In this document: positions 31,361 to 43,233 of the stretch, one piece after another
Numbering within the stretch: the stretch's first letter is position 1
Layout: the number at the start of each line of letters is the position of its first letter
NCBI GenBank assembly: GCA_012735575.1
Contig: JAAYGY010000028.1
Span: 1-43,233, forward strand
Length of the DNA stretch: 43,233 nucleotides
Reading direction: 5' to 3'
DNA from: Clostridiales bacterium
Lineage (GTDB): Bacteria; Bacillota; Clostridia; Caldicoprobacterales; UBA3941
Translations under genes and position numbers: made by a program
Notes under the pieces: model-generated
Database searches by the model: none
Told to the model about the DNA's origin: nothing
Seen by the model: the letters and a program-made list of their open reading frames with translations, nothing else

Positions 31361-31882
31361 TCAATTTCCTTCTACTATATCTATCTTGCCAAATACTACA
31401 TTGGCTTCTATTACTAGTGCGGGAGTACCTTCCCCAGTTCTATAGGTATGGTCTCCGAAAACGATAGTTGATCCATCGGGGGTATTGCCACTTCCAAAAG
31501 CTGAGCTTATCTTTATCACGGTTGGTATTTCGGGATTAACCTTTATCAAAGTATTTCCAAATATAGTATTTATTTGGATATTGTCCCTAAGCTCATCTAT
31601 TGAAATAGTTGATAAGTCAATGACCATGTTGCCAAACACTACATTATATTCCTTTTCAGGATCCACTATCTCAACCTTACCATCTGAAAAAAACATATCC
31701 GATCGGTTTTTAACTACAAATCCTCCCATTAGTGCAGATACACCCATAGCTATAAAAAGAACACCAATTATTATTCTAGGCATAGAGATGTTAAGCTTAA
31801 ACTGATACTTTAAAATTAGCAGAATACCAATTCCAATGAGAAGGATTCCCCAAAAATAATTTTGCACACCTTTCATAATCAT
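31361..31882 (-). CDS. Small LiaF-like membrane protein
   Basis: A 173-residue protein with two N-terminal membrane helices (YFWGILLIGIGILLIL; IIIGVLFIAMGVSALMGG) and a beta-rich C-terminal domain of the LiaF-like type with repeated VVFGNMV, TIFGNT, SAFGSG and VVFGKI turns. LiaF proteins inhibit cell-envelope stress kinases or shape envelope stress responses. No kinase is next to it. The window holds a second, larger relative at 42313-42984. Located upstream of htpG on the same strand. Confidence 0.85.
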   Translation of the reverse strand: MIMKGVQNYFWGILLIGIGILLILKYQFKLNISMPRIIIGVLFIAMGVSALMGGFVVKNRSDMFFSDGKVEIVDPEKEYNVVFGNMVIDLSTISIDELRDNIQINTIFGNTLIKVNPEIPTVIKISSAFGSGNTPDGSTIVFGDHTYRTGEGTPALVIEANVVFGKIDIVEGN

Positions 31883-31930: not shown

Positions 31931-33337
31931 TTATAATACTATTTGAAAATAATTCTTTGCATTATTAAAACATATATCCTGAATCATTCTACCCAACAGG
32001 TCAAAGTCATAAGGCGCCTCTCCATTTTCAACCCACTCACCGATAATATTACATAAAATCCTTCTAAAGTATTCATGCCTGGTGTAGGATAAGAAACTTC
32101 TGGAGTCGGTAAGCATTCCTACAAAGCGGCTTAATAAACCTACATTTGCCAAAACTTTCATCTGTTCTTCCATACCATCTTTTTGATCATTGAACCACCA
32201 GGCGGAACCAAATTGAATCTTACCGGGAATGCCATCCCCTTGGAAATTACCTGTCATAGTAGCTAAAACATAGTTGTCTTTTGGATTTAGAGTATATAGT
32301 ATGGTCCGAGGCAGAGCATTTTCAACATCCAAAGCATCTAAAAATCGTGATAGATTATAGGCGATGTTGTGGTCATGAATTGAATCAAATCCAATATCGG
32401 GCCCTAGCTGCCTAAACATTCTAGTATTATTATTACGCATAGCCCCAATATGTAGCTGCATTGCCCATCCCAGTTTTGCATATAATCTGCCTAAAAACAA
32501 CATTACAGCGGTCTTAAATGCTTCCTCATCCTCCAGGCTTATATTATCCTGTTTTCGTCCTTTACTGAATATTTCATCCAACTTTTTGCTGTCTGCTCTT
32601 CTGTAGGGAACATATTCGAAGGCATGATCCGATAGACGACAGCCTCTTTCATGAAAATAATTTACCCTATCCTCCAAGGCACTTAAATACTCATCAAAGG
32701 AGTTTATTGATCTTTCAGTTATTTCTTCTAACCTGTCTAACCAGTCCCTAAAAGTTTCCTTATTTATATCCAAGCCCTTATCAGGACGGAAGGTAGGTAC
32801 CACTTTTACATCAAAATCATCTAAAGCCTTAATCTTTTCATGATATCTAAGATCATCCAGGGGATCGTCAGTTGTGCCTACCAGCCTGACATTGGATCTT
32901 TTTATAAGGCCTCTGGGTGTAAATCCCTCCTCTTTTAGCATTTCATTAACCTTATTCCATATATCTTCAGCAGTATCTTCATTTAACAGTTCATCTATAC
33001 CAAAATATCTTCTAAGCTCCAGATGGGTCCAGTGGTATAAAGGATTACCTATAGTGTAGGGAACAGTGCCTGCCCATTTCTTAAATTTTTCAAAATCATC
33101 TCCATGGCCGGTTATATATTTTTCATCTACACCATTGGCGCGCATGACCCTCCACTTATAGTGATCTCCATAAAGCCATAATTCTGTTATATTTTTATAA
33201 TACTTGTTTTCCCAAATCTCCTTGGGGTCTAAGTGACAATGATAATCGTAGATAGGCATATCCTTTGCATATTCATGATATAATCTAACGGCAGTATCAT
33301 TGGACAATAAGAAGTTTTCATCCATAAACTTTTTCAA
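31931..33337 (-). CDS. uxaC: Glucuronate/galacturonate isomerase
   Basis: About 468 residues. It interconverts glucuronate and fructuronate (or galacturonate and tagaturonate), the first step of hexuronate breakdown. Metal-binding histidines are in YDYHCHLDPKEIW near the start. Other UxaC blocks are LHIGAMRNNNTRMFRQLGPD, TILYTLNPKDNYVLATM, and GMLTDSRSFLSYTRHEYFRR. A TTG at 33337 (MKKFMDENF) has the strong GGGGGAG site 6 bases before it, which favours it over the in-frame ATG at 33352. No other uronate genes are adjacent. Complements the glycosidase genes in polysaccharide use. Confidence 0.95.
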   Translation of the reverse strand: MKKFMDENFLLSNDTAVRLYHEYAKDMPIYDYHCHLDPKEIWENKYYKNITELWLYGDHYKWRVMRANGVDEKYITGHGDDFEKFKKWAGTVPYTIGNPLYHWTHLELRRYFGIDELLNEDTAEDIWNKVNEMLKEEGFTPRGLIKRSNVRLVGTTDDPLDDLRYHEKIKALDDFDVKVVPTFRPDKGLDINKETFRDWLDRLEEITERSINSFDEYLSALEDRVNYFHERGCRLSDHAFEYVPYRRADSKKLDEIFSKGRKQDNISLEDEEAFKTAVMLFLGRLYAKLGWAMQLHIGAMRNNNTRMFRQLGPDIGFDSIHDHNIAYNLSRFLDALDVENALPRTILYTLNPKDNYVLATMTGNFQGDGIPGKIQFGSAWWFNDQKDGMEEQMKVLANVGLLSRFVGMLTDSRSFLSYTRHEYFRRILCNIIGEWVENGEAPYDFDLLGRMIQDICFNNAKNYFQIVL

Positions 33338-33429
33338 TCTATACTCCCCCATTATTTCATATATGATATACTACTTAATAATTTATCATTCTTATCTGAT
33401 TAAAGCAATTCATTTGATTAAAAAATATC

Positions 33430-33679
33430 TTATCCACATTTTCCACACAATACTACCCCTTAAATTCTAGGATTTTTATGACTTTATGCCTTTAAAACTG
33501 AAAGTTATCCAGTACTTATCCACAAGTTATCCATATATCTGTTAATAACTTAATTGATTCTTATACAATTATGAATAAAAAGAAGGAAGTTATCCACATA
33601 AATTCACTTTTTTCACGGTTTTGTGGATAGTTTTGTGGATAACTTGTTTTTTCTTGTGGAATTTTTTCAGTTATCCACA
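33430..33679. other. DnaA-box cluster (five perfect boxes), possible DnaA-titration or origin-like region
   Basis: Perfect TTATCCACA boxes lie at 33430-33438, 33516-33524, 33590-33598 and 33671-33679 (plus strand) and 33634-33642 (minus). Single-mismatch boxes occur at 33439-33447, 33527-33535 and 33622-33630, with weaker ones at 33505-33513 and 33655-33663. Chance expectation for five perfect 9-mers in 250 bases is far below one. The cluster sits in a roughly 600-base gene-free region where the flanking genes diverge (uxaC minus, DUF1538 plus). dnaA is not in the window. The minus-strand rRNA on the right argues that the main origin is further right, so a datA-like or regulatory DnaA site is favoured. 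Confidence 0.85.
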
Positions 33680-33691
33680 TTTTTTATCTTA

Positions 33692-33720
33692 TTGACAAAT
33701 TTCTTTTTTACTGTCATAAT
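33692..33720 (+). promoter_or_regulatory. Sigma-A promoter beside the DnaA boxes
   Basis: TTGACA (33692-33697) and CATAAT (33715-33720) are separated by exactly 17 bases. It reads rightwards from a perfect DnaA box that ends 12 bases before the -35 element, so DnaA binding could affect it. Confidence 0.7.
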
Positions 33721-33728
33721 CAAATTGA

Positions 33729-33758
33729 TTGACAATTGCATAAAACTATTCATATAAT
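33729..33758 (+). promoter_or_regulatory. Consensus sigma-A promoter for the DUF1538-PII genes
   Basis: A perfect TTGACA (33729-33734) and perfect TATAAT (33753-33758) are 18 bases apart, one of the best promoters in the window. It would start an mRNA near 33765 with a leader of about 185 bases before the DUF1538 start. The leader contains a small ATTATCC/GGATAAT hairpin, but no recognised riboswitch. Confidence 0.8.
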
Positions 33759-33947
33759 AAATTTATCGTTAGTTTTATGCATTATCCTACTAACTAATTG
33801 GATAATCTTGGTTTTTAGTTTAGTATGGGCTTTTATCAATACTTGATATTAGCCTTTTTAACTGTTTACTTTTTTTCGTAGTATATATGCACTTACAATT
33901 TTTTTATTTTGGCAATAATATCTACACTAAAGAAAGGAGTAACGTAT

Positions 33948-34643
33948 ATGTTTGTAAGAGCACTTAAGGATCTGTGGGAGACAGCCAGTTCAGTACTTCC
34001 CCTAATGGGAGTACTTATAGTCTTTCAGCTTGGGGTTCTCCGAAAGCCCATACCCAATGCTAAGGTTTTTATTATAGCCTGTTTTTTGTGTTTATTTGGC
34101 CTTCATTTTTTCATTAAGGGTGCTTCTAATGCACTTATTCCCCTTGCCGATACTGTGGGTAGTAATATAGTTAGTATAAATAATAACTACATTATAATTG
34201 GGTTTGCCCTATTATTAGGATATGCTTCTACTCTAGTAGAACCTGCACTAGCCGCCCTGGCTATTGAAGTAGAGGAAATATCGGTAGGCGCCATTCGCCG
34301 TAATGTGCTCACTCATACCGTTGCTATAGGATTTGGTATTGGACTGGCCATTGGGATTAGTAAAATATTGTTCAACATATCCACAAAAAAAATACTTTTA
34401 CCATTATTGCTAATATCTGGTATACTTGCTTATTTTGCGCCTGAAGAGTATGTTGCTATAGCTTTTGATTCTGCCAGTGCAACCACAGGCCCTGTAAATA
34501 TTCCCATTAACATGGCATTGGCAATAGGTATTGCCAAGACTTTAGAGGGTGTAGATCCTTTATTAAGCGGCTTTGGCATAGTAGGGCTTACTTCTATGGG
34601 AACAGTTCTATCCGTGCTTACATTGGGTATACTTAACAAATAA
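33948..34643 (+). CDS. DUF1538 membrane protein (putative transporter half)
   Basis: About 231 residues from the ATG at 33948, preceded by AAAGGAG; an in-frame ATG at 33909 is less likely. It has about six hydrophobic segments and the DUF1538 stretches GYASTLVEPALAALAIEVEE and AFDSASATTGPVNIPINMALA. DUF1538 proteins are putative membrane transporters often encoded beside PII signalling proteins; many exist as two adjacent halves or one double-length protein. Only one half is present here, followed by a PII gene. It likely acts as a homodimer or needs a partner elsewhere. Transport substrate is unknown. Confidence 0.85.
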   Translation: MFVRALKDLWETASSVLPLMGVLIVFQLGVLRKPIPNAKVFIIACFLCLFGLHFFIKGASNALIPLADTVGSNIVSINNNYIIIGFALLLGYASTLVEPALAALAIEVEEISVGAIRRNVLTHTVAIGFGIGLAIGISKILFNISTKKILLPLLLISGILAYFAPEEYVAIAFDSASATTGPVNIPINMALAIGIAKTLEGVDPLLSGFGIVGLTSMGTVLSVLTLGILNK

Positions 34644-34777: not shown

Positions 34778-35101
34778 ATGACTACAAAAGCTATATGCGC
34801 CATTGTAGAACGGGGCAAAGCTGACCGCATTGTAGACAAAGCAAAAAAAGCTGGAGCAGAAGGCGCTACTGTTATCTATGGTAGGGGTACAGGGGAAAAG
34901 GAGTTTATGAGATTTTTTAACCGCCAAATAGAATCATCAAAAGAGATTATTCTCATAGTTACCGAAGAGCATAAACTAGATCCTATTCTAAACGCTGTTA
35001 TTAAGGCAGGTAATCTGGATCACCCAGGGGCGGGAATTGTTTTTTCCTTCGACATTGAAAATTTACACGGTCTCCAACACAGATTAGAAGTAAAAAAGTA
35101 A
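34778..35101 (+). CDS. PII-family signalling protein
   Basis: A 107-residue PII-like protein (MTTKAICAIVERGKADRIVDKAKK start; GAEGATVIYGRGTGEKEF forms the T-loop region; HPGAGIVFSF near the C terminus). It is not a GlnB/GlnK: the T-loop lacks the usual Tyr modification site context. It follows the DUF1538 gene on the same strand, and such PII variants are thought to control the neighbouring membrane protein by binding a small ligand. The ligand is unknown. Strong AGGAGG site. Confidence 0.88.
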   Translation: MTTKAICAIVERGKADRIVDKAKKAGAEGATVIYGRGTGEKEFMRFFNRQIESSKEIILIVTEEHKLDPILNAVIKAGNLDHPGAGIVFSFDIENLHGLQHRLEVKK

Positions 35102-38351: not shown

Positions 38352-39900
<1,549 letters not shown>

Positions 39901-42312: not shown

Positions 42313-42984
42313 TTAATTAAGTATATCTATACCCCCGAACATGACAAGGCATTTTATTTCAAGTACAGGCTGATTTTCTATATCACCTACAGAGGTTTTG
42401 ACTTTATTTTCCCAAGCTCCAAATATTGGTGTACCTTTTACTACAACCCGCCAGTGGTCCGGTACTTTAACCTCAATACCACCAAAAACAGCAGTTAATT
42501 CCAAAAAAGCACCTTCCTGAGACAGCTCAGCCTGCCTTAGATCTAAATCAATACCACCAAAGGCAACCGTAGCACTTCCTCCAGTAAAATTTTTCGAAAT
42601 ACATTTATTCTCTAATCCTGAAAAAACAACAAAGTGGTCGATGATATCATCTGTATATTCTTCTAGGTTATCTTTTTTTTTAGGGCGTTCAAATATGATG
42701 AATAAACCTATAACTATTAGAATAGTTGGCCATAAATACTTACCTATATCACTAGGTAATAGACCTAAAATTTTTAATTGGAAAAACCCACCGATAAATA
42801 TAAGGATAATAGCTGATTTAGAAGAATGCCCTTTAGAAAAAAGCTGATTAACACCTATAGCTATCAAAATCACAGGCCAGTACATGGATACTAATGTAGC
42901 AAACTTTATAATTTCCAGTTTATCTAATAGAAATAAAGTCCCTAGTATAACGAACAATATTCCAATAAAAGTTCGACCACGCAT
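42313..42984 (-). CDS. LiaI/LiaF-like membrane protein
   Basis: A 223-residue protein with about four membrane helices in the first 105 residues (a LiaI/DUF5668-like module) and a C-terminal LiaF-like beta-domain (about 125-223) with repeated VAFGGIDLDL, AVFGGIEVKV and VMFGGIDILN. It is the larger relative of the 31361-31882 protein. LiaF proteins modulate envelope stress sensing. The ribosome binding site AGGGGG is strong. No LiaRS kinase/regulator pair is next to it. Confidence 0.85.
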   Translation of the reverse strand: MRGRTFIGILFVILGTLFLLDKLEIIKFATLVSMYWPVILIAIGVNQLFSKGHSSKSAIILIFIGGFFQLKILGLLPSDIGKYLWPTILIVIGLFIIFERPKKKDNLEEYTDDIIDHFVVFSGLENKCISKNFTGGSATVAFGGIDLDLRQAELSQEGAFLELTAVFGGIEVKVPDHWRVVVKGTPIFGAWENKVKTSVGDIENQPVLEIKCLVMFGGIDILN

Positions 42985-43095: not shown

Positions 43096-43107
43096 AATAT
43101 ATTTGAA

Positions 43108-43192
43108 TCCGGCAGCGACCTACTCTCCCAGGGGGTCTCCCCCCAAGTACCATCGGCGCTGAAGGGCTTAACTTCTGTGTTCGGTATGGGAA
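43108..43192 (-). rRNA. rrf: 5S ribosomal RNA, 3' portion
   Basis: Read on the minus strand, the last roughly 85 bases of 5S are present: CCATACCGAACACAGAAGTT, the CGCCGATGGTACTTGG stretch, and the GGGAGAGTAGGTCGCTGCC end. The first roughly 30 bases of 5S are missing, since the sequence runs directly into 23S-like sequence. The gene is therefore incomplete. Confidence 0.9.
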
Positions 43193-43233
43193 ATCTTATC
43201 TTGAGGGGGGCTTCACGCTTAGATGCCTTCAGC
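43186..43233 (-). rRNA. rrl: 23S ribosomal RNA fragment joined directly to 5S
   Basis: The minus strand here reads GCTGAAGGCATCTAAGCGTG and then AAGCCCCCCTCAAGATAAGA, which is the 23S region near its 3' end (around E. coli position 2750 onward). In a normal operon at least 100 more bases of 23S, a spacer, and the 5' part of 5S would follow. Here the sequence switches to mid-5S at a shared seven-base TTCCCAT (43186-43192). The join is most easily explained as an assembly artefact at a contig end. Confidence 0.85.

Follow-up and report, generated by a model that had tools for sequence, protein, structure and literature searches.

A conserved cluster of DnaA boxes upstream of uxaC, away from oriC, in a family of Clostridia: a likely DnaA sink

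The intergenic region upstream of uxaC in the window (the whole stretch of DNA analysed, 43,233 bp in length) contains a cluster of DnaA boxes that is real and conserved, and is likely to act as a sink for DnaA. On balance we favor its assignment as an extra-oriC DnaA-box cluster (DBC) of the kind found in Bacillus subtilis, which would draw DnaA away from oriC. The best reading of the sequence is that the cluster serves as a DnaA sink or a regulatory platform, and it may in addition control the leftward uxaC operon.

RESULTS

DnaA boxes of the cluster and their surroundings

A box scan of the window identified five perfect DnaA boxes and three with one mismatch at 33430-33679, in both orientations. 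The positions are the same as those in the preliminary description of this DNA, which had listed five perfect and at least three one-mismatch boxes. No other perfect box occurs in the 43-kb window, where 12 boxes with up to one mismatch lie outside the cluster, and the cluster is the densest perfect-box site of the assembly. Its features are as follows.

33430..33447, plus strand: tandem pair of DnaA boxes, TTATCCACA + TTTTCCACA, in a 9-bp register, forming the left edge of the element
33430, plus strand: perfect box TTATCCACA, first of the left tandem pair
33439, plus strand: one-mismatch box TTTTCCACA, second of the left tandem pair
33516..33535, plus strand: pair of DnaA boxes, TTATCCACA + TTATCCATA, in an 11-bp register, in the middle part
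33527, plus strand: one-mismatch box TTATCCATA, second of the middle pair (the perfect box is at 33516, plus strand)
33586..33682, plus strand: 97-nt conserved core, with boxes in the orientations plus, minus, minus, plus at offsets 0, 32, 44 and 81, and one degenerate box
33590..33598, plus strand: core box 1, TTATCCACA, perfect in 6/6 family genomes
33622..33630, minus strand: core box 2, CTATCCACA, one mismatch (0-2 mismatches in relatives)
33634..33642, minus strand: core box 3, TTATCCACA, 12 bp from box 2 in 6/6 family genomes
33655..33663, minus strand: degenerate box AATTCCACA within the invariant block TTGTGGAAT, which is identical in six genomes
33671..33679, plus strand: core box 4, TTATCCACA (0-1 mismatches in relatives)

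Single boxes mean little, because the 51 perfect boxes in the whole genome (2,588,171 bp in 105 contigs) barely exceed the 41 found with a reversed-pattern control. Random placement of 51 sites gave a maximum of three per 250 bp, reached 18 times in 20,000 trials, and the probability of finding at least five perfect boxes in 250 bp is estimated as approximately 1e-9.

The genes on the two sides diverge, as had been described: uxaC runs leftward from 33352 and a DUF1538 gene rightward from 33948. The AT content is 83% at 33353-33429 and 76% at 33681-33947, compared to 63% for the window, and two rightward promoter-like sites match the consensus at 11/12 and 12/12 positions, in agreement with the AT-rich DNA and two strong promoters noted earlier. 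The surrounding features are as follows.

31931..33352, minus strand: uxaC, glucuronate isomerase (PF02614, E 7e-227), left neighbor in 5/6 family genomes
33380..33408, minus strand: candidate leftward (uxaC) promoter, TTGCTT-N17-TAAATT, with TG before the -10
33692..33720, plus strand: promoter-like site TTGACA-N17-CATAAT, 11/12 consensus, 12 bp right of the last box
33729..33758, plus strand: promoter-like site TTGACA-N18-TATAAT, 12/12 consensus
33948..34643, plus strand: DUF1538 membrane protein (PF07556), seen as right neighbor only in the window genome
34778..35101, plus strand: PII-type regulatory protein (PF00543), the next gene after DUF1538
43107-43233, minus strand: partial 5S rRNA gene at the contig end

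The PII genes of the preliminary description thus reduce to one PII-type gene, at 34778 and behind DUF1538, and its rRNA is indeed on the minus strand but extends only to the partial 5S gene. A search near the cluster for a small gene like sda gave only short, unconvincing open reading frames. Elsewhere in the window, there is a T-box leader at 39677-39889 on the minus strand, upstream of serS. A LiaF-like membrane protein at 31361-31882 and a putative second one at 42313-42984 flank the cluster, at distances of approximately 2 and 9 kb. Where LiaF homologues occur elsewhere in the order, there is no cluster nearby.

Inverted boxes could also form a hairpin in a transcript rather than act as DNA sites, and both strands do fold better than shuffled sequences (z approximately -3.5 to -5). 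The two strands fold about equally well, however, as inverted 9-mers must; directly repeated boxes outside the hairpins are conserved too, and there is no Rfam match. We regard an RNA hairpin as a very improbable explanation.

Conservation within the family

The 97-nt core is present in all six available genomes of the family, which represent four genera, with scores of 79-96 bits. When five of the genomes were used to model the core sequence, the model found the sixth, G002, blind (79 bits, E 2.8e-22); outside the family, its highest score in 93 genomes was 26.7 bits. At an E value of 1e-4, the only matches among 30 genomes of the order are the six family genomes.

The core boxes are at offsets of 0/32-33/44-45/81-83 in the six genomes, a variation of no more than 2 bp. 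Conservation is concentrated in the boxes, where 37 of 44 columns are invariant, versus 17 of 53 in the spacers (Fisher p 2e-7). Outside the core, the left tandem pair with its 9-bp register is recognizable in all six genomes, with 0-2 mismatches per box, and a box 74-75 bp to the left of the first core box is kept in five of them (perfect in three).

The flanking genes vary. In the congener G001 the cluster is at the same place upstream of uxaC, in DNA that is about 82% identical, and it is present also in G003, G004 and G005. The right neighbor could be compared in the window genome (G000) and in G002-G005, the G001 contig stopping short of the right-hand gene. Where G000 has DUF1538-PII, G003 and G005 both have tRNA-Arg(ACG), G002 has a small unrelated gene, and G004 has a gene for a SAM hydroxide adenosyltransferase. 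Past a variable insert, G000 and G002 both have tRNA-Arg(ACG), two tRNA-Ser genes and serS. On the left, G004 lacks the local uxaC and has a LiaF-HSP90 operon directly adjoining the cluster, and the G002 contig includes just the first codons of uxaC. That box letters and spacing are kept family-wide while flanking genes change argues for the cluster having a role of its own.

Two other observations were made in these comparisons. In G005 (L073:1261-4013), genes for a BrxC/D-type ATPase and a TerB-domain protein are found near the tRNA-Arg side of the cluster, a pair that may represent a defence locus. One or two in-frame stop codons (TGA or TAA) are reported within the otherwise full-length serS of G008 and G025 and the DUF1538 homologue of G004.

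Relation to the origin of replication

The dnaA gene is on another contig, C49, where rnpA diverges from it and dnaN, recF, gyrB and gyrA come next (gene names other than dnaA being based on a reading of translations and gene order). Locating dnaA-dnaN was a check proposed in the preliminary description, and it places them apart from the cluster, with boxes of their own on both sides of dnaA. The gap between dnaA and dnaN carries the DnaA-trio run CTACTACTATTACTACTA, with six trios in a row; a similar run is reported for oriC2 of Clostridioides difficile, which carries CACCTACTACTATTACTACTATGA (PMC7561715).

The GC skew was computed for the window and is negative to the left and to the right of the cluster; a small positive stretch at 34-37 kb tracks local plus-strand genes. 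Because the skew stays negative apart from such short stretches, we place the window on one arm of the chromosome with the origin to its right, as do the gene strands. The minus-strand 5S gene, at which the contig stops, fits this placement. The serS gene was of no use as a marker of distance from oriC, having no consistent place relative to dnaA. The skew does not change sign at the cluster, which bears out the earlier judgement that a main origin here was unlikely.

The same description had raised the possibility of a second or displaced origin. A second, displaced or latent origin, whether chromosomal or from an integrated replicon, would be in keeping with boxes in both orientations adjoining AT-rich DNA. 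Against this, there is no run of three or more DnaA-trios in 33300-33950, compared to the six in the oriC on C49; the sign of the skew is unchanged; no initiator gene was recognized among the scanned neighbors; and no plasmid or phage DNA related to the region was matched. An origin at this site is therefore extremely improbable. We rejected it on the missing trios, the constant skew and the canonical oriC on C49, and a mobile or integrated replicon on the lack of plasmid or phage matches.

Control of the neighboring genes

The preliminary description also proposed a DnaA-controlled promoter for the PII genes. Control of the DUF1538-PII genes would fit the two near-consensus rightward promoters, the first of which is 12 bp from the last box and is kept in G001. 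That site is absent from G002-G005, however, and the second, at 33729, is degraded already in G001. A first contig scan with DUF1538 gave no matches, and the following comparison gave four close homologues (46-68% identity), all lacking upstream boxes. Since the right neighbor also differs in G002, G003, G004 and G005, all of which keep the core, we consider control of these genes quite improbable, and it is not supported as a conserved role.

On the left the situation is different, and DnaA control of the uxaC operon is a real rival, because all five genomes with uxaC retain a promoter-like motif facing leftward. This possibility was not proposed previously and arises from the present analysis. 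In its strong form, this reading sees the cluster chiefly as the promoter region, under DnaA control, of the leftward operon uxaC-LiaF-like-HSP90-HcyBio, whose carbon-use and stress genes would go up or down with replication state, as at sda or ywcI of B. subtilis. It is consistent with uxaC being the left neighbor in five of the six genomes, with those five sharing the motif TTGMTT-N17-TARATT at an equivalent position between uxaC and the cluster, and with a first box approximately 21 bp upstream of the -35 of the candidate promoter. The genes under DnaA regulation in B. subtilis include sda, ywlC, vpr and ywcI-sacT (PMC4447404). G004, however, keeps the core with neither a local uxaC nor the promoter-like motif; its other uxaC, and uxaC genes elsewhere in the order, lack an upstream box cluster; and conservation within the cluster is highest at the end most distant from uxaC. 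For these reasons we think it unlikely, though well short of negligible, that promoter control is the main role.

DISCUSSION

The cluster as a DnaA sink

A DBC has been defined as three or more DnaA boxes at a mean distance below 100 bp (as cited in PMC7561715). Here, eight boxes with at most one mismatch fall within 250 bp, outside the dnaA/oriC region on C49. The separation from the real origin, together with near-fixed spacing in six of six family genomes, leads us to read the conserved cluster as a probable docking site, keeping DnaA from the origin, and not as an origin itself.

The arrangement suggests how such a site might act. Four or five boxes at fixed spacing in the core, together with the tandem pairs on the left, would allow several DnaA molecules to bind cooperatively. 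As the core has no DnaA-trio or unwinding part, the bound DnaA would be held or remodelled and the DNA would stay unopened. Once duplicated following initiation, the site would pull DnaA from oriC and postpone re-initiation, a negative effect on initiation that is predicted from the sequence. In the dnaA-dnaN region of the same genome, two head-to-head boxes are 41 bp apart, compared with 37 bp in the cluster, which has no trios. The core thus resembles the box part of that region minus the unwinding part, which is what a sink would need.

The closest parallels are the DBCs of B. subtilis (for example gcp/ydiF, ywcI/vpr, ywlC and yqeG/sda), which likewise consist of closely spaced intergenic boxes away from dnaA, in similar number (4-11; PMC4447404 Table 1), in a Firmicute host with a bipartite oriC. 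The strongest DnaA-binding regions of B. subtilis in vitro carry 4-12 boxes (PMC4447404), and deletion of six DBCs outside oriC leads to early initiation (PMC5295017, PMC13220808; review literature). The present cluster differs in that its uxaC locus is none of the B. subtilis sites, its spacing is fixed across genera, and its DnaA binding and effect on initiation are predictions. In B. subtilis, only the removal of all six DBCs has a strong effect, and several of these sites regulate transcription as well. The sink role may for this reason not be the selected one, and a role in transcription is possible because the left neighbor is nearly constant (uxaC in 5/6).

The datA locus of Escherichia coli is similar in having five strong DnaA boxes outside oriC, with sites conserved over spacers (PMC4585315), and in the negative effect on initiation proposed here. 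However, datA needs IHF, and is unrelated in sequence and from another phylum. No match to the IHF site (WATCARNNNNTTR) was found in 33353-33950, and we therefore do not claim a datA mechanism. Titration, offered previously as a datA or B. subtilis-type cluster, is the best supported of the three readings in that description, in its B. subtilis form. The DARS1 and DARS2 loci of E. coli, too, lie outside oriC and have a DnaA-box core of conserved spacing, but their effect, reactivation of ADP-DnaA, is the opposite of that of a sink. Finally, with regard to the bipartite oriC of Clostridia (oriC1 and oriC2 around dnaA), the cluster has box sequences and head-to-head pairs resembling those of the dnaA-dnaN region of this genome, but the trio run, CTACTACTATTACTACTA in this genome and CACCTACTACTATTACTACTATGA in C. 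difficile oriC2, has no counterpart in the cluster.

Other box clusters and turnover

The genome contains a second extra-oriC cluster, on contig C82 at 2256-2361 (L005), beside an ArsR-type regulator and spo0A. DNA similarity identifies it in the same six family genomes, with near-identical box spacing in G000 and G002. In an order relative, three perfect and three one-mismatch boxes occur at L047:9316-9399 (G009:C2), upstream of apparent amino-acid ABC transporter genes.

The region 3' of tsaD (gcp) is a known DBC position in B. subtilis (gcp/ydiF; PMC4447404 Table 1); our literature search found no paper linking tsaD with DnaA boxes. In 57 genomes, we counted boxes in the 400 bp that follow tsaD on its 3' side, taking at least three as presence. 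Outside the family, 28 of 51 genomes have a cluster, including 20 of 22 of the same order, compared with none of the six within it; control 400-bp stretches beside the region mostly had none. The tsaD clusters often have a 9-12-42 bp box spacing (examples are L162:1329-1425, L172:2485-2610 and L186:1270-1341).

That the family lacks this widespread cluster and has two others suggests turnover of such sites, a suggestion rather than a proof because the absence in all six genomes may go back to a single loss. More tentatively, and with considerable doubt, an ancestral tsaD cluster may have been lost in the family and replaced by the uxaC and spo0A clusters, so that total DnaA-binding capacity was preserved and its place moved. 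Whether extra-oriC clusters in Firmicutes are selected as regulators of replication or are by-products of promoter control is an unsettled question. The tsaD pattern, with a cluster in most of the order and none in the family, provides a natural gain-and-loss comparison for initiator titration.
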